From a virus, in IMG/VR virus record IMGVR_UViG_3300027906_000148, positions 1-24,553 of that record: DNA of 24,553 nt. One strand, given 5' to 3'. Positions 2,604 through 11,276 of the stretch are shown one piece after another. How positions within the stretch are numbered: position 1 is the stretch's first letter; each line of letters begins with the position of its first letter. Both the position numbers and the translations under genes were made by a program. The notes below the pieces were generated by a model. It saw only the letters and a list, made by a program, of their open reading frames with translations. It did not search any database and was not told the DNA's origin.

Positions 2604-4016
2604 TTACGAAGATTTTCTTGGTATCGAATCTTTCAATAATAATGCTTCAGTAGTCATATTAGTACCAGTAATCTTATGTGTCAACCCCCCAATGACATAT
2701 CTTCCACTATATTTTCTATCTACATCTGTGGTTTGATTTCTTTTATATGTTGCAGGTAAAACTATATTCATTCCATTTCCTGCATACAGATCAAGATTAC
2801 CAGGAATTTTAATCATCAACTTAATATTCTTTAGAGACTCAATCCTCATCCATTGGTATGCCTGAAGTTCTACCAATTCCTCATATTGTTTTTGAGGATT
2901 ATCTTGAAATTTTGGATCAAAAATTTGATTTGATAAAGCAGTATATCTTGTGCGTCTTGGATAATTAACAATTGGTTTAACTGCATCATCCAATTGTGAT
3001 AATGGATTGATTGCTTTACTCTCATTTAAATGTGACATCTTTGGCCATATTGCATTAATACCATAACGGTAAGCATTCGCTTTCATATCAGTACTTAATC
3101 CCATCTTAGATTGAGTTACGGTAACAGGATCAAACCCCATACTAAATCCTGCCCAAGCACCATGACGCAATCCAGTTAGGAAGTCTCTCTCTTCTGGAAA
3201 TACTATAGTTTCAATTTTGAATTGATCAGCACCATCTGAACCAGATGACTTTGTCGAATACACATAAGTGTACAACTTAGTCTCACCTGTGGTAAAATTA
3301 CTGTCTGACTCAGTTTGATTGTTTACATTATCAATAATTTTGTCAATAGACCTAAAATTATAACCTAAACCATTTTCATAAAAAAGAAATCCATTTTGAA
3401 GAGTACCACCCTTTCGTGCTTTTCGTACTGACCTTTGTGAAAGCCAATAGATACAATCAAATGGTCTCCAATTTGTTGCTACAAACTGCTGTTTGTTTGT
3501 AGATTCTTCAATATAAATCTTCTTTTGAGTTTTTATATACCTATTATCTGTCTTCAAAAGTTGCTCTACAATATCAGAAGATGCCGTAGAATTAAATATG
3601 ACTTGACTATTTCCAAATACATTAACGATCTCATTCTGGATAAATTCATCACTAGCACAATTAACAATAAATGAATCTGCAGTATTTAATCTTGTTCTTG
3701 CCTCAATATCATATGCTCTAACCCAATAAACTCTGTCAAGAATTGTTCCTCTAATTATAATCCTGAACAATTCAGATCCAGTCATGGCACCTATAAATCC
3801 AGAACCATCATTAAAGAGAAGTTTTACCTCTATGGTTGATGAAGTAATACTTTCATAGATTTCAATACCTGTAATGAAATCGTATATATCATCAGCACCT
3901 TCAGAACTTTGAAGTTTAGCACCATTCCTAAAGACGTTAACTTTTACCTCAACATCACCCGATTCATTTCTTCTAATGCTCCCAGATGTTGTTGAGGTGC
4001 TGCTTGCTGAAGTCAT
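2604..4016 (-). CDS. gp27-like baseplate hub protein
   Basis: A 470-residue protein that has the layout of the gp27/gpD tail hub family. An N-terminal barrel strand set (IYDFITGIEIYESITSS, then EVKLLFNDGSG and GSELFRIIIRG) is followed by a small helical segment with SSDIVEQLLKT. Then come WRPFDCIYWLSQRSVRK and GFLFYENGLGYNFRSID. A C-terminal barrel reads KLMIKIPGN, then SGRYVIGGLTHKITG and ALLLKDS. T4 gp27 (391 residues) forms the trimeric ring that joins the tail tube to gp5. The ATG overlaps the stop of the preceding tape-measure-like gene by 4 bases, a position that fits the chaperone, tape measure, hub order of other tails. The call rests on pattern recognition, not on strong identity. 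Confidence 0.68.
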   Translation of the reverse strand: MTSASSTSTTSGSIRRNESGDVEVKVNVFRNGAKLQSSEGADDIYDFITGIEIYESITSSTIEVKLLFNDGSGFIGAMTGSELFRIIIRGTILDRVYWVRAYDIEARTRLNTADSFIVNCASDEFIQNEIVNVFGNSQVIFNSTASSDIVEQLLKTDNRYIKTQKKIYIEESTNKQQFVATNWRPFDCIYWLSQRSVRKARKGGTLQNGFLFYENGLGYNFRSIDKIIDNVNNQTESDSNFTTGETKLYTYVYSTKSSGSDGADQFKIETIVFPEERDFLTGLRHGAWAGFSMGFDPVTVTQSKMGLSTDMKANAYRYGINAIWPKMSHLNESKAINPLSQLDDAVKPIVNYPRRTRYTALSNQIFDPKFQDNPQKQYEELVELQAYQWMRIESLKNIKLMIKIPGNLDLYAGNGMNIVLPATYKRNQTTDVDRKYSGRYVIGGLTHKITGTNMTTEALLLKDSIPRKSS

Positions 4017-6790
4017 CTGAGTAAACCTCTCATAGGATTAAGGGAAGATTGTAAAGTGGATGCAATAGATCCTGCTGAACTAGAACTACTTGGAATCAAC
4101 TGTGGTTGATTACCACCAGTTTGACCTGCAACTGATGCTAGTGCTTGGTGTGCTGCTTGGATCGCTTGACTATTTACCCCATTTTGTTGAGCAACTGCTG
4201 CCATAACTTCTTTAATCATTTCTTGACTTCTCTCAGCTATCTGACGACGTGCTTGATTTCTTTCTTTTGTCTGTTGCTGCAGTTTTTGATCGTGTCTTCT
4301 TTGTTGGAATTGAGCTGACCTGCCACCGACTCCTGTTGCACCCTGAGCATTACTCATTCCTGGTAATCCAGCACCTTTAGCAAACCAATTACTTTTTACA
4401 CCAGAAGACTCTTCTTTATTTTTCTTTTTAGCACTCATATTACCAGAACCACTACTATATCCCTTACTTGTAGTAGAACCACCTGCTCCCATTGCCGAAG
4501 AAACCGTAGAATCATCTTCATGCTGCAATCCAACCCAAGTAGATTTCAATCTAGAAACATTACCACCAGTTTGTTTTACTAAAGCAATACCAAGTTTATT
4601 TTGAGTTGCTGGTGAAAACTGATCATTTGGACTAACAACACCTTGATTAACTAAACCCCTCAAAGTACTTCCAATAATCTGATAACGACCAACAGCATGT
4701 AACTTACCAGCTGATTCCCACTGAGCATTATTCATACTCTTATCATCATATTGCTTGTCCATGACTTCTTTAACTGTCATAGAAGTTAGTGCTTTACCAG
4801 ATGAGTTAAATGGTGCCTTTCTATAGTCTCCACTGTATCCAAGAGCAGTGTGACCACCATCAGCACCACCCTGATTGACTGCGTTATATCCTCCAACATT
4901 ATCAGATTCTCTCTTACCAATAAGATCGAGAATAGCACCATAACCTCCTGCTTCCGTAGGCATATTAGCAGTACTGCTGCTGCTGCCACCTTGAAGACCT
5001 TTACTAATCCCCTCTAAGAAACCTAGATGTAAGTGCTCTGGGTGACCTAGACTTCCAGGTCCACTTTTACCACCACCTTTGAACCATTGTCCCCATCCAT
5101 CACTGATGATTTGGGATAGTTTCATTTTATCACGAAGTTGATACGCTTGTTCTGCTAATTGTGCAGTTCTTGCTTTCCAAGCACCTGGTCTCCAATCAGT
5201 AATATCAATTGCTAAACCTTTATAGTGAAGACTGCCATCACTATGCCCACCAACACGCTCACCGCCACGTTTATTAAATCCAACTCCTCTATTAGGACCA
5301 CTACCACTATACTTATTCTTTTTGAAATTAGGATGCTCGGCAACGGTATAACCTTTATCCAATGCCCATTTACCACCAGCAACAACTGCCTGTAAACCAG
5401 CACCTATAGCAGGTTTTCCATCTTGTCCTTTCTTTGATACAGGTTCGCTTGTAGTTGGTTTTGTTGGTTTTCCACCACCACCAGTAAGATTTTTCCACCA
5501 ATCCTGTGCAAGACCCCCCAGACTAAAACCAGGTATGTCAAATCCCATACTCTTAGCTTCACCTAACCTTTTATTTGTTAAGTTTGGTTGTGTTTTTGTT
5601 CCAGGAGTATCAAAAGGAACGATGAAAGCTCCCCCATCGCTCTTTCTAGCAACGTACTCAGTTCCATGTCCGATGAACGAAGTGGATCTCCCTCCATCCA
5701 ATGAAACTCCATATCCTGATTGTGGTCCATCAATCCATCCTCCTTGTGCTGCTGAAGGTTTATTACCTACCTCGCTTTTGAATAATATATTTTTTATTGA
5801 TTCGTTTAGGTTACTCCAGAAATCACCTCCTTTAGAATCAGCACCCTCCGTATTTATTTGGATATTAACATTCTCACCTAAATTAACGTCTATCGCACCT
5901 GAGAGATTACCATCCTTATCAAGGGTTACGTTTCCACTATCACCTAATTTTATACTTGCTTGATCAACTCCTGCATATTCTTCAGACCCGTCATCTCTTG
6001 GATCTGCTCTTCCACCAGATCCATCTTCCTTCATATATTCATAAAGTTTATATCCACCATAAGCAGTTGCTGCAATCAATCCAAGTGCTCCAGCTCTACC
6101 TAGTAATCCCCTTCTTCCTCTAATTAGATTGTTATGAAGGAAAATTAATACATTACCAAAATCTGTAATAATTCTAGTTGGATTACTTAACCAACGCATA
6201 CCCAATAATAAAGTTCCAAGTCCAGTTAATCCTTGTACAAGACCTCCTATTTTTTCCCAAGGCGAAGAGGTATCTGACAGGAGAGTATATAATCCTTCAA
6301 TAGTATTAACAACACCAAATTCTGCGACTTTAAAGATGAACGTTGCCAACTTAGAAAGGGCTTCGATCATATTTGATACTTTTTCCCTGTTCGCAGGATC
6401 AGATAACCATTTCAAAGCAGGAATAACAATCGCTGCTTTAATTAGTCCACTCAACATCTTGAACAGACCTTCTAACCAACTAGGTTTTTTTACTAAAGCA
6501 GCAGGACTGAATCCAGAAAAAGTTTTCTTCTTTTGTGTTTTTGTATATGTTGCTTGAAAATCCTTCTGTTTTTTCGTTGCAAGTTCTAACCTTGCAAGTT
6601 GAATCTTTTTAAAATCTTGAGCGATTTTTGCAATAGAGTTTACAGTTCCACCCAGATGGTTGATAGCAATAGTATTCGTATTGATAGTTCTTGCAACCTC
6701 ACCATCTACCGAGTTAGTATTACCAGTAGGTTGCTTTACCTGTACAAATTTATAAAAATTAATTTTTGAACTTTTTTTTATAGTTGCCAT
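4013..6790 (-). CDS. tape-measure-like virion protein with M15 peptidase and lysozyme-like domains
   Basis: 925 residues. Residues about 104-218 (PSWLEGLF, LKWLSDPANREKV, WLSNPTRIITD) are paralogous to the same region of the gene just upstream. Residues about 515-590 resemble Zn-dependent M15 peptidases: SLHYKGLAID supplies His522 and Asp529, and HPEHLHLG supplies His586/His588. Residues about 613-745 resemble a lysozyme or lytic transglycosylase domain, with Glu628 in GKRESDNVGGYNAVN, then LTSMTV and AVGRYQI. The tail is Gln/Lys-rich and probably coiled. The likely role is degradation of peptidoglycan during injection. Its TAATG start overlaps the 909-residue gene and its stop overlaps the hub gene, which supports a place in the tail lumen or at the hub. 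Which cell-wall bonds it cuts is unknown. Confidence 0.72.
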   Translation of the reverse strand: MATIKKSSKINFYKFVQVKQPTGNTNSVDGEVARTINTNTIAINHLGGTVNSIAKIAQDFKKIQLARLELATKKQKDFQATYTKTQKKKTFSGFSPAALVKKPSWLEGLFKMLSGLIKAAIVIPALKWLSDPANREKVSNMIEALSKLATFIFKVAEFGVVNTIEGLYTLLSDTSSPWEKIGGLVQGLTGLGTLLLGMRWLSNPTRIITDFGNVLIFLHNNLIRGRRGLLGRAGALGLIAATAYGGYKLYEYMKEDGSGGRADPRDDGSEEYAGVDQASIKLGDSGNVTLDKDGNLSGAIDVNLGENVNIQINTEGADSKGGDFWSNLNESIKNILFKSEVGNKPSAAQGGWIDGPQSGYGVSLDGGRSTSFIGHGTEYVARKSDGGAFIVPFDTPGTKTQPNLTNKRLGEAKSMGFDIPGFSLGGLAQDWWKNLTGGGGKPTKPTTSEPVSKKGQDGKPAIGAGLQAVVAGGKWALDKGYTVAEHPNFKKNKYSGSGPNRGVGFNKRGGERVGGHSDGSLHYKGLAIDITDWRPGAWKARTAQLAEQAYQLRDKMKLSQIISDGWGQWFKGGGKSGPGSLGHPEHLHLGFLEGISKGLQGGSSSSTANMPTEAGGYGAILDLIGKRESDNVGGYNAVNQGGADGGHTALGYSGDYRKAPFNSSGKALTSMTVKEVMDKQYDDKSMNNAQWESAGKLHAVGRYQIIGSTLRGLVNQGVVSPNDQFSPATQNKLGIALVKQTGGNVSRLKSTWVGLQHEDDSTVSSAMGAGGSTTSKGYSSGSGNMSAKKKNKEESSGVKSNWFAKGAGLPGMSNAQGATGVGGRSAQFQQRRHDQKLQQQTKERNQARRQIAERSQEMIKEVMAAVAQQNGVNSQAIQAAHQALASVAGQTGGNQPQLIPSSSSSAGSIASTLQSSLNPMRGLLR

Positions 6791-9519
6791 TAGGATCCCT
6801 TCGCTCTCTCAAGTAAAGAATTAGGTGCAGTTACTATTATTTGGGTACCACCTCCAGTATTTATTGCTACTGCTTGAGGGATAGTAACGATTTTTTCAAT
6901 GATAGTTGGAATAGGAATAAACTCCATAGCTTGTTCCAGAGCATACTCAGCAGAAATACCACCTTTGGTTAGTGCTTGCTGATGTGCTGACTTTACTGCA
7001 CCAAGAACTTTAGGATCGATACCCATCTCTGCAGCAATTTGTGTCATAGCAGTAATTTTATCACCACCACCAAATAGACCAGTAACTGCCTTAAGGAGTC
7101 CTCCCATACCCTGTTGTTCTGCAATACCACTAATCAGACCCATAGGATCTTGCCTAAATGAATCTATCATTGCCATCCCCTTTGTAACCGCCGCACCCAT
7201 TTCAGGATTGAAAGCACCTAAAGCACCACCATAGTTACCACTCATAATATCAGAAGCAATACCACCCCACTTAGGATTAAACGTATTTAAAGCACCCATA
7301 TAGTCGCCACCCAGAACTTGCTGTCCAATTTGTCCCCATTTGGAACCCATGATATTATTAACTCCATTGGTTAAGGCACCCCATGCATTAGCACCGCTAT
7401 GATACATATTCGCTACACCTTGACCAAAACCACTAAATCGTAAGTTCTGCAACCATTGAGGTTGACTGATAGCATTAACTGTATTGATATTAGCAAAAGC
7501 ACCCAGTCCACCTAGTCCAGCAGAAAGAGCACCCATAATATCACCACTCATCGCAGAATTAACACCATTAATCACTGCCATTGGTATTTGCATACCAGGA
7601 ATGAATGATAATGCAGTACCTACTATAGGATTACTAGCTATTTTCGTTACAGCATTCCATGCACCACTAACAGCTTTCTTTATGCCTTTGAAGAAACCAC
7701 CAATGCCGTATCCTGGAAGTTTTCCTCCACTTGCCTTCTTACCCCAACTAAATGGATTCCACCAGTTTTTCTTCGTTTCATTTTTTTTCTCTTCCTTCTT
7801 CTTATTACCAAATAAACTAGACCAAGAAAAACTTGATTTTATAAATTTATCTTCGGTTTTTTTCTCTTCATTCTTCTTACTACCACCAAATAGATTACTA
7901 AACCAATTACTTGTCTTCTTCTTTTCAGTCTTGTTGTTAGATTTAAAGTTTTCAAATATTTTACTAATATCTCTATTTTCTGAAATCGTTCTGGCATAAT
8001 TAAGCTGTTTTTGCAACGTTGCTTGTCGCACATCATCCAGTTTATTTCCTTGTCCTAAACCTAACTTTCCGAACCAACCTTGTTTTGATCTTGCTTCTTG
8101 AAGTTTCGCTAATTCAGTTTCATAGAATTTTATAGTTTCTTCACTACCAGTTGCTAAGAATCTTTCATTTACTTTATTTTCATTAGATTTATCAACACGT
8201 CTCTGCATTGGATCCGTGATAACAGCGTCTACGATTTCATTAATAGTATAATCAGCAACAAGAGTAGCAATAATCTGCAATGGAGTAGCACCAGCACCCT
8301 TGATCTTTGTTCCAGCACCTTTTACCCTAGTCCACCAAGTTGGTTTAATTCCACCAGTACCTGTAGTTACAGTACCCTGTTTGAATAGGTTAGACCACCA
8401 AGTACCCAATCCAGATTTACCACCTTGACCCTTTGTTACCTTATTCCAATTTCTAGTCCACCAATTACCTGTTTGACCAGATTGAGTAAAATTCTTTTTC
8501 TTGAATAGTTTATCCCACCAAGTTGGTTTTTTTGGGGTACCACCACTACTTACTCTATCAGAAGCTTTCTGACCAAATAGTTTTTGCCACCAACCACCAC
8601 CACCTTGACCACCAACACTTACATTAGGTTTTTGCCCAAAGAATCGTTTAGTATTTTTTATCCATTCTCTAATTCCTCTAAGTGGTCCTGTTGATTGTCC
8701 TCCACTTGTTGTGGTTTTATTTCTAAATCCTTCACCAGGTCTGGTTTTTGGTTTGAATTTATTATTTGGATTCTTGTTTTTATTCTGGTTTTTATTCTTG
8801 TTTTTATTCTTGTTTTTATCACCACCACGCCTGTTACTGCCCCTATCTCCAGTAAGTAAATCGATTAGTGCTAGAATATCAGTAATAATACTGAAAGGGT
8901 TCATCAGGTATTTCAACCCGATCAAACCCTTCATTATAGTTCCAAGACCACCTAACCTTTGTATAAATGTACTATTAGGATCTGATAGAGCAGAAAATCC
9001 GTCTAGAATATTGTTAGTAAATCCTGCTGCCCAACCGAATAATTTAGAAAACACAAAGTGCGTCTTCTCTAGAAAATCTGATAATTTCTCAACATTAGCA
9101 GGATCTCCTACCCACTCAAGTAATTCCTTTGTAATAGCAATTCTAGCCAGAAATCCAAGAAATTTTCCAATCGGTGCTAAAAATTTTTCTATCCAACTAA
9201 GACTACCCTTAGCAATCTTTAAGGATCTTTTGGTTAATTTGGGTTTTCTTTTTGCTAACTTCTTATTCTCTATTGCTTCTTCTGCCGCCTGATCTAATTC
9301 TCTTCTGTCTCTGCGACGTTCTGCTTTTTCTCTTAACTTATCATTCTTAATTTGAGCAATTGAAATATTTTCTATATCCTTAACAACCGTTCCTATTCCA
9401 GAGATCGTACTCCCTAGTCTATTCAACGCTAAGGTTTGTTTTCTTGCACCAGCAACTGATGGAGATTTCACCTTTGAAACTCCAGGATTTACAAATTTGT
9501 AAGTTTGTAATTTAGCCAC
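6790..9519 (-). CDS. probable tape measure protein with Trp-rich repeats
   Basis: 909 residues from a GTG that overlaps the end of the gp51-like frame. It is the best tape-measure candidate because it directly follows the gp26/gp51-like pair. Residues about 1-110 are basic and helical. Residues 112-220 hold the hydrophobic module shared with the downstream paralogue (LLEWVGDPANVEKL, KYLMNPFSIITD). A Lys-Asn run lies at 235-250. Trp-Trp motifs recur at 310, 334, 353, 374 and 395, and related NWFSNLF, FSWSSLF and NWWNPFSW blocks lie at 538-592. Residues 600-790 are Gly/Ala-rich with near repeats such as YMGALNTFNP and YGGALGAFNP. T4's tape measure (gp29) is about 590 residues and has no recognisable similarity here. 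The role comes from gene order and composition. Confidence 0.62.
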   Translation of the reverse strand: MAKLQTYKFVNPGVSKVKSPSVAGARKQTLALNRLGSTISGIGTVVKDIENISIAQIKNDKLREKAERRRDRRELDQAAEEAIENKKLAKRKPKLTKRSLKIAKGSLSWIEKFLAPIGKFLGFLARIAITKELLEWVGDPANVEKLSDFLEKTHFVFSKLFGWAAGFTNNILDGFSALSDPNSTFIQRLGGLGTIMKGLIGLKYLMNPFSIITDILALIDLLTGDRGSNRRGGDKNKNKNKNKNQNKNKNPNNKFKPKTRPGEGFRNKTTTSGGQSTGPLRGIREWIKNTKRFFGQKPNVSVGGQGGGGWWQKLFGQKASDRVSSGGTPKKPTWWDKLFKKKNFTQSGQTGNWWTRNWNKVTKGQGGKSGLGTWWSNLFKQGTVTTGTGGIKPTWWTRVKGAGTKIKGAGATPLQIIATLVADYTINEIVDAVITDPMQRRVDKSNENKVNERFLATGSEETIKFYETELAKLQEARSKQGWFGKLGLGQGNKLDDVRQATLQKQLNYARTISENRDISKIFENFKSNNKTEKKKTSNWFSNLFGGSKKNEEKKTEDKFIKSSFSWSSLFGNKKKEEKKNETKKNWWNPFSWGKKASGGKLPGYGIGGFFKGIKKAVSGAWNAVTKIASNPIVGTALSFIPGMQIPMAVINGVNSAMSGDIMGALSAGLGGLGAFANINTVNAISQPQWLQNLRFSGFGQGVANMYHSGANAWGALTNGVNNIMGSKWGQIGQQVLGGDYMGALNTFNPKWGGIASDIMSGNYGGALGAFNPEMGAAVTKGMAMIDSFRQDPMGLISGIAEQQGMGGLLKAVTGLFGGGDKITAMTQIAAEMGIDPKVLGAVKSAHQQALTKGGISAEYALEQAMEFIPIPTIIEKIVTIPQAVAINTGGGTQIIVTAPNSLLERAKGS
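8320..8670 (-). repeat. Trp-Trp repeat region in the tape-measure candidate
   Basis: Encodes residues 284-400. WW pairs occur at intervals of 24, 19, 21 and 21 residues, each followed by a short basic stretch (WWQKLFGQK, WWDKLFKKK, WWTRNWNKV, WWSNLFKQG, WWTRVKG), with Gly/Thr/Ser-rich spacers. A second set of three degenerate copies lies at 7741-7908. Confidence 0.75.
8758..8820 (-). repeat. Lys-Asn low-complexity run
   Basis: A short tandem of AAA/AAC-type codons encodes alternating Lys and Asn (residues about 234-254) just after the conserved N-terminal module of the 909-residue protein. It looks like a hydrophilic, slippage-prone linker. Confidence 0.7.
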
Positions 9520-9706
9520 CAGCTGCTTTTTGCTCCTTCATTCTACGTTCCTCTTCTTTAAGGAAATTGACTAACATATTCACATAGATCTCCTTTTCCC
9601 ATGGCATCAGATTATCGATATACTCGATATTCCATTTATGATGATGTATTAAGGAAAAGTTACCTTCATAATAAGCCTGTAGATTGGTGTGAAGAAGAGC
9701 TATTCG
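9512..9706 (-). CDS. gp51-like extension, probably made only by -1 frameshifting from gp26
   Basis: This 64-codon open stretch lies between gp26 and the tape-measure candidate. It begins in the -1 frame at the end of gp26 and runs to a TAA at 9512-9514, overlapping the GTG of the next gene. The encoded peptide has a tape-measure-chaperone look: LQAYYEGNFSLIHHHKWNIE, then YIDNLMPWEKEIYVNML and a charged helix KEEERRMKEQ. No ATG, GTG or TTG occurs in the first 33 codons. In the same frame a TGA lies only about 11 codons upstream of the slip site. It is therefore most simply expressed as a gp26 fusion of about 298 residues. T4 gp51 is a hub assembly factor; the identity is inferred from position and pattern. 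Confidence 0.75.
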   Translation of the reverse strand, partial: RIALLHTNLQAYYEGNFSLIHHHKWNIEYIDNLMPWEKEIYVNMLVNFLKEEERRMKEQKAAGG

Positions 9707-10407
9707 AAAAAACTCGCTAGACCCTCCAGTACAACATCACTTTCAACCTTAGTGTTAGGGTTAGTAACCTTAACAGTGTGAGTTAATTTAGGCATTTTTT
9801 CAAAAAACTCCTGTATCATCATGAATTGCTTGCTATTCATTTGATCAAAAAATTCTATTAGTTCCTTTTTAGGAACAGTAGAACAATCATAAACTTGATT
9901 AGCATCACTAATTGATTCTACACAACTAGCTGCCATATCAAAAACTTGATCAACCTCAGCACCCTCACCAAAGTTCATAGCAACGAATGTTTCAATAGTG
10001 GGATATCCCATTGTAATAGCAACTTCCTCAGAAATCTTAAGATCTTTTTTATGACCTCTAGTTTTCTTGACTTTAATTTCGTCTAAGGGAATAGAAACTG
10101 ATACACTAGTTTCATCATCATCAGGACAAATTACATTGACATCTACACTTTCACCAACAGATTTTGTACGAATCTGTAAGAAAACGAATTCAATATCAAA
10201 TGTAGCAAGTTTTTCTACATCTGTAATGTCTGTACAATCTTTGATAATATCTTTGATTGCACCAACGATAGTAGTTTGATCACCACTTTCAGTAGCTAAG
10301 AGAAGGATTTTCTCCTCCTTTACAAGAAATGGTCTAAAATTCACAGTTCTACCGTCTGAGGGTAGTTTCAATTTGTACTTAGGTACACTAATCTTAGGTA
10401 ATGCCAT
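9700..10407 (-). CDS. 26: gp26-like baseplate hub assembly protein / tape measure chaperone
   Basis: 235 residues starting at the ATG at 10407 (MALPKISVPKYKL). A GTG three codons upstream is possible but less like known family starts. It resembles the T4 gp26 family through FRPFLVKEEKILLLA, the DIEFVFLQIRTKSVGE segment and a helical C-terminus. T4 gp26 (208 residues) is needed for hub assembly. By gene order, directly ahead of the tape-measure candidate, it corresponds to the chaperones of other tails. The last codons contain a frameshift heptamer, so a minor longer product of about 298 residues is likely. It starts 24 bases after gp54. No strong Shine-Dalgarno was seen. Confidence 0.82.
   Translation of the reverse strand: MALPKISVPKYKLKLPSDGRTVNFRPFLVKEEKILLLATESGDQTTIVGAIKDIIKDCTDITDVEKLATFDIEFVFLQIRTKSVGESVDVNVICPDDDETSVSVSIPLDEIKVKKTRGHKKDLKISEEVAITMGYPTIETFVAMNFGEGAEVDQVFDMAASCVESISDANQVYDCSTVPKKELIEFFDQMNSKQFMMIQEFFEKMPKLTHTVKVTNPNTKVESDVVLEGLASFFE
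9706..9712 (-). promoter_or_regulatory. -1 ribosomal frameshift site T TTT TTC
   Basis: Read in the gp26 frame the codons are AGT TTT TTC GAA TAG, so the heptamer X XXY YYZ is T TTT TTC. After a -1 slip the next codon is CGA and translation continues for 64 residues. A 5-base inverted repeat (CTTCA/TGAAG) lies downstream with a loop of about 20 bases, a weak candidate for a stimulatory structure. Confidence 0.75.
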
Positions 10408-10427: not shown

Positions 10428-10435
10428 TATTTAGG
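10428..10435 (-). promoter_or_regulatory. CCTAAATA motif, possible variant late promoter upstream of gp26
   Basis: The minus strand reads CCTAAATA about 20 bases before the gp26 ATG, overlapping the end of gp54. It differs from NATAAATA at one fixed position. The same octamer occurs upstream of gp4 and gp32. Its function is uncertain. Confidence 0.35.
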
Positions 10436-11276
10436 CAGTGTTAATACCAGTAATAGTCAGTAATGAGTTAACAACGGTATCTAGAACTGATTGGTTATTG
10501 GAAGTCGAATTAGTCGTAACATCATCTAAGTTCGTACCAACCGTAAGATAGTTAATAGTATCAGTGTCAAACTGATCAGCAGTATAGAAACGATATCTCT
10601 CATAATAAAAACCAACACTCAAAGTCATTGTTTGAGCATTAGAGTTATTCAACTGAACCGAACCAATATTATATGGATATAAATTTCTGAGATCCCAACA
10701 ACCAGTTAGTTGATACTTTCTTGCCAATAATATATCTGCGTTTCCACTTTCTCTTATAGCAGCAATTAACTCAGGATCACTAACTGCTAAACCTCCACCA
10801 CCTCTTTCCCACTTGTAAATCTTCATAGTAGGACAAACATAATCACTATAATATCTTGTATATTGCTCACTATCACTTGCCATCATAGTTGTCCATCTCT
10901 CAAAGAAATTTCTTGAGTATTGAGAGCGTGGCATTCTAAAGTTTATACTAATCTGACTATATGCTGTATTTGTTGCATACTTAAATGGTGATCCAACATA
11001 AGGAGTTTGTGAAGTAGTAACCTGTTTACTTGGGAGATTTACTGTATCTGCATAGTAATCAAGTAACCAATTCAAATCATTATTTGCACCAGCATCGAAT
11101 ACTGTTGGTTGGTATGGTCCAACTGCAGGAATAACTGTTTGCAACATCGGCGGTGACATAAACCTTACCGAAAATAAATTAGTAAAACTAGGAGAATTGT
11201 CTTTGCCTTTGGTTTTAGATATAAATTCTTGAAATGAATTGTATCTTGCTCCTTCTCCGTTGACGGGATTTGTCAT
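10431..11276 (-). CDS. 54: gp54-like baseplate tail tube initiator
   Basis: 281 residues with the beta-rich, tail-tube-like pattern of the T4 gp48/gp54/gp19 group: FTNLFSVRFMSPPML, then LDYYADTVNLPSKQV, ISINFRMPRS, FFERWTTMM, a YPYNIGSVQLN segment and LSVGFYYERYRF near the end. In T4, gp54 sits on the baseplate and starts tube polymerisation. gp48 is encoded nearby on the other strand, so this member is assigned as gp54, with a swap of the two names possible. The start overlaps the gp4 stop as TAATG. The region after residue 235 is Thr/Asn/Ser-rich and poorly conserved in appearance. Confidence 0.75.
   Translation of the reverse strand: MTNPVNGEGARYNSFQEFISKTKGKDNSPSFTNLFSVRFMSPPMLQTVIPAVGPYQPTVFDAGANNDLNWLLDYYADTVNLPSKQVTTSQTPYVGSPFKYATNTAYSQISINFRMPRSQYSRNFFERWTTMMASDSEQYTRYYSDYVCPTMKIYKWERGGGGLAVSDPELIAAIRESGNADILLARKYQLTGCWDLRNLYPYNIGSVQLNNSNAQTMTLSVGFYYERYRFYTADQFDTDTINYLTVGTNLDDVTTNSTSNNQSVLDTVVNSLLTITGINTA

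Follow-up and report, generated by a model that had tools for sequence, protein, structure and literature searches.

A conserved slippery heptamer probably joins gp26 to a gp51-like extension by −1 frameshifting in T4-like cyanophages and related phages

Introduction

The tail assembly chaperone of phage lambda is made in a short form, G, and a long form, GT, the latter by slipping into the −1 frame shortly before the first frame ends. G and GT alike bind the tape measure protein, the T part binds the tail subunit, and neither form is found in virions; this frameshifting is widely conserved, with T4 as an exception (PMC5009743). In T4, gp26 and gp51 are listed as hub assembly chaperones, and gp51 is required yet absent from the particle (PMC3004832). 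Here, we analyzed a stretch of 24,553 nucleotides (nt) of marine cyanophage DNA (positions 1 to 24,553 of IMG/VR record IMGVR_UViG_3300027906_000148; hereafter, the window), in which gp26 ends on a slippery heptamer and is followed, in the −1 frame, by a reading frame related to the C-terminal part of T4 gp51. We conclude, with a probability of about 0.92, that this locus codes for a pair of tail assembly chaperones working in the manner of lambda G/GT.

The core of this idea had largely been published by 2022. According to two papers that cite it (PMC10885494 and PMC12846349), Vladimirov et al. 2022 described some T4-like phages with one short chaperone gene and one long, fused one, an arrangement like the one described here. 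Earlier, gp51 of cyanophages and marine vibriophages had been found to be without about 200 N-terminal residues (PMC3037559, from 2010). Among the papers that searches of the open-licence literature listed, none deals with this cyanophage locus in its title or abstract opening. What we add is the breadth of conservation, an upstream GAGG element and a covarying downstream stem-loop in a sister clade; these may already be contained in Vladimirov et al. 2022.

Results

The gp26 gene of the window lies on the minus strand at 9700–10407, with an ATG start at 10407 and a TAG stop at 9702–9700. Its 235-residue product matches PF12322 (E = 1.9e-76; 250 bits against a curated cut-off of 24.5) and is found in 614 records, the closest named relative among the matches listed being Prochlorococcus phage P-SSM7 (94.4% identical). 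The 3' end of the gene reads AGT TTT TTC GAA TAG and, as the original prediction had it, carries the heptamer T TTT TTC in the codon phase of gp26 (9712–9706, minus strand). A slip back by one base would lead into a −1-frame extension of 64 codons plus TAA (9512–9706, minus strand; first codon at 9706, TAA at 9514–9512) that matches phrog_634 (E = 4.5e-30) and is the counterpart of the T4 gp51 C-terminus. The predicted joined product has 234 + 64 = 298 residues, and both the open frame and the product have the lengths foreseen from the sequence. The earliest ATG, GTG or TTG past the slip is codon 34, which lies within the conserved peptide; the claim that the first 33 codons hold no start was thus correct. 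A TGA that had been placed about 11 codons before the heptamer in the −1 frame in fact lies 27 nt, or 9 codons, before it. The annotated gp51 of P-SSM7 is a fragment that begins at an internal ATG, and this ATG sits inside the conserved peptide.

Relatives were taken from IMG/VR as a best-match sample from six scans of the viral collection, which kept at most 80 loci each (two of them yielded two relatives and one), not as a census; four of 174 loci were dropped because the contig ends inside gp26. All 170 usable loci carry T TTT TTN in phase, with C as the seventh base in 154, T in nine and A in seven. In these last seven loci, TTTTTTA changes phenylalanine to leucine, and the heptamer is nonetheless kept. 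Among the first 80 relatives, T TTT TTC is present in phase in every one, ten bases before the stop in 79. Removing near-identical loci reduced 171 to 101 for the heptamer and GAGG analyses (the window included; one locus is too short for folding and frame counts, leaving 100) and 81 to 57 for the codon-use test, a set drawn from the window and the first 80 loci. The codon before TTT TTN ends in T in 101/101 non-redundant loci and encodes serine, asparagine, aspartate, alanine or threonine. In the codon-use set, the TTT TTC pair occurs in all 57 sequences against 10.6 expected from the genes' own phenylalanine codon use, and a preceding codon ending in T also occurs in all 57 against 35.5 expected.

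Of 18 named divergent phages, 17 keep the heptamer, namely P-SSM7, Syn9, HTVC008M, phi-pp2, phiN3, DLP6, pf16, PhiW-14, Moby, SRB7757, S-CRM01, phiAS5, RL2RES, P-HM1, P-SSM2, Mosig and S-SSM7; as seventh base, HTVC008M, phiN3 and pf16 carry T and RL2RES carries G. The one-locus arrangement occurs in T4-like cyanophages and in Pelagibacter, KVP40-type, Aeromonas phiAS5, Sinorhizobium and Stenotrophomonas phages, among others. The alignment of gp26 3' ends that had been suggested as a check came out in favor of the original prediction, since both the heptamer and the −1 frame are conserved. The prediction had spoken of this phage and perhaps its relatives; the relatives share the arrangement, and it is not peculiar to the window phage.

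Past the slip, the −1 frame is free of stops over 50 codons in 100/100 non-redundant loci, compared to 0/100 for each other frame. The ratio of nonsynonymous to synonymous change (pN/pS) is 0.20 in the −1 frame versus 1.22 and 3.54 in the other frames, as calculated from 2661 pairs that are not independent of one another. A tblastn search with the tail found 544 phage records, 528 of them covering at least 80% of it, and among the matches listed the alignment begins at the first query residue, that is, at the slip, in 59 of 60 rows. The −1 frame is without a conserved start: the first ATG past the slip is at codon 3–5 in 58 of the 170 loci, at codon 9–10 in 44, at codon 19–20 in 37 and further downstream than codon 20 in the other 31. 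We also noted that the −1 frame of Nitratidesulfovibrio phage SRB7757 (an unannotated record) lacks ATG, GTG and TTG throughout, hence frameshifting is almost the only way in which its extension could be reached.

We next compared the locus with the T4 genes. T4 gp26 and gp51 resemble each other (BLASTP E = 2e-6; profile-profile comparison, 2.4e-22), and both match PF12322, a family whose seed may include the T4 sequences. A profile of 78 joined cyanophage sequences (3/81 with incomplete tails were excluded) aligns across the junction with T4-type gp51 (E = 6.4e-18), and a tail-only profile reaches E = 1e-8 as compared to 0.75 for a reversed-tail control. The window gp26 aligns with T4 gp26 in a profile comparison, and phrog_634 is matched both by the window tail and by residues 147–246 of T4 gp51, which is encoded in a single continuous frame. 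Genes 26 and 51 are divergently transcribed neighbors in T4 and likewise in 44RR, Pm5461 and Konradin, whose record names both products 'tape measure protein assembly chaperone'; in KP15 they are arranged one after the other, provided that the gene labelled 'baseplate hub' is gp26, as suggested by where it lies. In a tree of the N-terminal domain, 18 frameshift-type proteins, including that of K445, share one branch (support 97/91), eight gp51 proteins form a second (100/100), and five T4-type gp26 proteins form a weak third with long branches (73/53); having no fixed root, this tree does not show the direction of change. From their similarity, T4 26 and 51 are paralogues, one holding the short form and the other the long form. 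The original prediction, which took the two to be separate in T4, was right in that they are two divergent genes; as paralogues, they are not unrelated. In one T4-like IMG/VR contig (L093, gp51 from 2501 onward), gp51 is broken at residue 120, where its relatives read through.

Upstream of the heptamer, the window carries a Shine-Dalgarno (SD)-like GGAGGG at 9722–9727 on the minus strand, a proposed stimulator whose GAGG (9726–9723) ends 10 nt before the heptamer. GAGG ends 9–10 nt upstream of the heptamer in 66/101 loci, compared to 33.9 ± 4.2 in 300 synonymous-codon shuffles (shuffle maximum 47), and AGGA is rarer than in the shuffles (14 versus 25.3). At the glutamate column inside GAGG, the codon GAG is preferred by 48 to 9; this claim is tempered by another conserved glutamate column, near the gp26 start, that is equally GAG-biased (41 to 5). 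Translation initiation from GAGG was rejected as its purpose, given that a −1-frame start lies 3–9 nt before the heptamer in 0/101 loci. SD-like sequences such as GAGG, placed 6–17 nt before the second base of the motif, stimulate −1 slipping (PMC4066793). The GGAGGG likely stimulates the slip in the window phage.

Downstream, predicted folding of 45-nt segments in about 51 loci peaks right after the heptamer, the mean z being −2.70 at offset 3, compared to −0.39 at offset 30 and −0.21 at offset −150. A 10-bp stem in the 38 loci of the P-SSM2-like clade has a covariation of 0.154 versus 0.058 ± 0.010 in shuffles, none of 500 shuffles reaching it, and one of its pairs occurs as U-A, G-C and A-U; two of five measures are not above the shuffles (double-change pairs, equalled in 187/500 shuffles; pair types, in 500/500). 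A single stem-loop common to all clades was considered and rejected, for the P-HM1-like alignment gave a covariation of 0.038 against 0.040 in shuffles and the window clade gave none. The null result in the P-HM1-like clade is perhaps due to a register that moves between subclades. The window clade has a mean folding z of −1.02 (eight loci), and in 7/100 loci both GAGG and a folding z below −1 are absent. The signals that are backed in the window phage are the heptamer and the SD-like element only.

A model of the window gp26 (predicted local distance difference test score, 87.4) was compared with 1000 candidate chains. Its best match was the HK97 tail assembly chaperone 2ob9 (root-mean-square deviation 4.3 over 83 aligned residues) at a Z of 7.7, which is below 8 and can mean merely a common arrangement. 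The second match was 3klu, YqbN, which we take to be a relative of phage tail chaperones (Z 7.0, root-mean-square deviation 4.2, 84 aligned); later rows scored 5.0 and 4.7. The two alignments span residues 1–86 of the gp26 model, that with HK97 residues 1–84. The C-terminal part of a T4-type gp51 model is helical. A search of the PDB by sequence gave weak, unrelated-looking rows only.

Upstream of gp26, at 10431–11276 on the minus strand, lies a gene for a tail tube family protein (phrog_45, tail tube, E = 4.3e-57). On the other side, a 909-residue candidate tape measure (6790–9519, minus strand) follows, with a GTG start at 9519 that overlaps the −1-frame stop. The original prediction of a tape measure directly after the chaperone stands as regards the large adjoining gene and its overlap; the identity of the protein rests on position and length. 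In 84 of 97 loci, the tail stop and the start of the next frame (open frames of at least 100 codons) either overlap or are no more than 3 nt apart, hence translational coupling of the extension to the next large gene is possible. We also noted that the 909-residue protein stands in tandem with a 925-residue protein (4013–6790, minus strand) and that the two are related over their N-terminal ~230 residues (BLASTP E = 1e-14), which suggests a duplicated tape-measure-like gene. The PHROG families of both, including the best PHROG of the 909-residue protein, carry the label 'endolysin'.

Discussion

Our results support a lambda G/GT-like reading of the locus, because the heptamer and the −1 frame are conserved, the extension is homologous to gp51, the gp26 model aligns best with the HK97 chaperone, and the genes stand in a lambda-like order of tail tube, chaperone and large candidate tape measure. 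Because the slip site is conserved, the −1 frame is constrained at the protein level and homology to T4 gp51 is continuous, we envisage that most ribosomes would stop at the gp26 TAG and yield the short chaperone. A minority would move back by one base at T TTT TTC, read past the TAG in the other frame and extend the product by 64 residues; the resulting long form of 298 residues would be the equivalent of T4 gp51. That slipping occurs, and that it is a minority event, we infer; in other tail chaperone genes, slipping was measured at 6–7% (PMC3711429). Both forms would bind the tape measure protein, and, while hub and tail are being assembled, the C-terminal part would recruit subunits of the tail tube, as described for lambda.

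Several observations weigh against this reading. Pfam has no match for the 909-residue protein, whose assignment as tape measure is by position only. Besides the HK97 score of less than 8, Foldseek alone returned no significant PDB match with the gp26 model, and the T4-type gp51 model had no match at a Z of 5 or more. Twelve sequences of the window clade gave no consensus structure, and the window itself gives no support for a stem-loop, with a downstream folding z of +0.98. An ATG lies within six codons past the slip in 43/101 non-redundant loci. Lastly, Vibrio phage K445 keeps the −1 frame without the heptamer (CTT TTC AAG TAATG) and has a start overlapping the gp26 stop. A frame kept without the heptamer, or one with a clear start codon and ribosome binding site of its own, had been named beforehand as what would refute a frameshift; the former was found in this one of 18 named divergent relatives, where a switch from frameshifting to re-initiation is possible.

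The last two observations also speak for the foremost rival, according to which ribosomes re-initiate after the gp26 stop and make gp51 as a small protein of its own, the heptamer being incidental. The stop-start overlap TAATG or TGATG is present in seven of the 18 named phages (phi-pp2, phiN3, PhiW-14, Moby, K445, S-CRM01 and RL2RES), and most records that we fetched annotate 'gp51' as a separate gene. However, the heptamer is present in all 170 loci whether or not an ATG is nearby, conservation begins at the slip, and the N-terminal part that T4 gp51 possesses would be missing from a re-initiated product. Moreover, the window has no ATG within these six codons, its first start being the one inside the conserved peptide, and SRB7757 offers no start whatsoever. 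As a general account of the locus, re-initiation is thus very improbable. In relatives with a nearby ATG, it may add a free C-terminal product. In the phages L096, L097, L100, L101, L104 and L108, the stop-start overlap stands alongside the heptamer, so that a free C-terminal protein could be a third product.

It is less probable still that RNA polymerase, rather than the ribosome, slips on the T run. A poly-T run is what such transcriptional slippage would need, and HTVC008M-type phages have eight T in a row. The window run is only six T long, however, and the run is closed by C in 92/101 non-redundant loci, even though TTT encodes the same phenylalanine; its codon phase is fixed, and the upstream GAGG and the sister-clade stem-loop fit ribosomal slipping. 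A sequencing error or a decayed gene in this contig, which the one continuous frame of T4 gp51 might bring to mind, has a negligible chance of being the explanation and was rejected, together with a chance heptamer, on account of the conserved heptamer and coding −1 frame of the relatives, given that the break recurs at the heptamer in 170/170 environmental loci and 17/18 named phages and that purifying selection acts past it.

The likeness of the frameshifted gp26–gp51 locus to lambda G/GT is one of arrangement. The two differ in that slipping is described, for certain tailed phages, as seemingly free of stimulatory signals (PMC5009743), whereas here GAGG is enriched and a sister clade has a stem-loop. 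With T4, the locus shares PF12322, and the joined product aligns with gp51 as gp26 does with gp26; what are two divergently transcribed genes in T4 are one frameshifted locus here. The dnaX frameshift signal has all three parts: an SD-like element, a heptamer and a downstream stem-loop. The locus resembles it in the SD-like element before the heptamer and, in some sister clades, in the downstream stem-loop; unlike in dnaX, the heptamer is made of T and not of A, and the window clade has no supported stem-loop.

The frameshift would also explain why gp51 of these phages has seemed to be without its first ~200 residues, as the missing part is gp26. Tentatively, and with the odds against it, we suggest that in T4-like phages other than the T4 group the 26/51 switch is a tuned signal of several parts, in which clades use the SD-like element and the stem-loop differently, and that T4 replaced this switch with two paralogous genes, one per form. 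The slip may further couple the long chaperone to tape measure synthesis, since shifted ribosomes would terminate on the start of the next large gene or close to it. None of the 17 annotated frameshift-type records that we examined marks gp26 and gp51 as a joined gene, hence these annotations would need correcting. Abundant ocean phages with the one-locus arrangement offer a way to test the role of 26 and 51.

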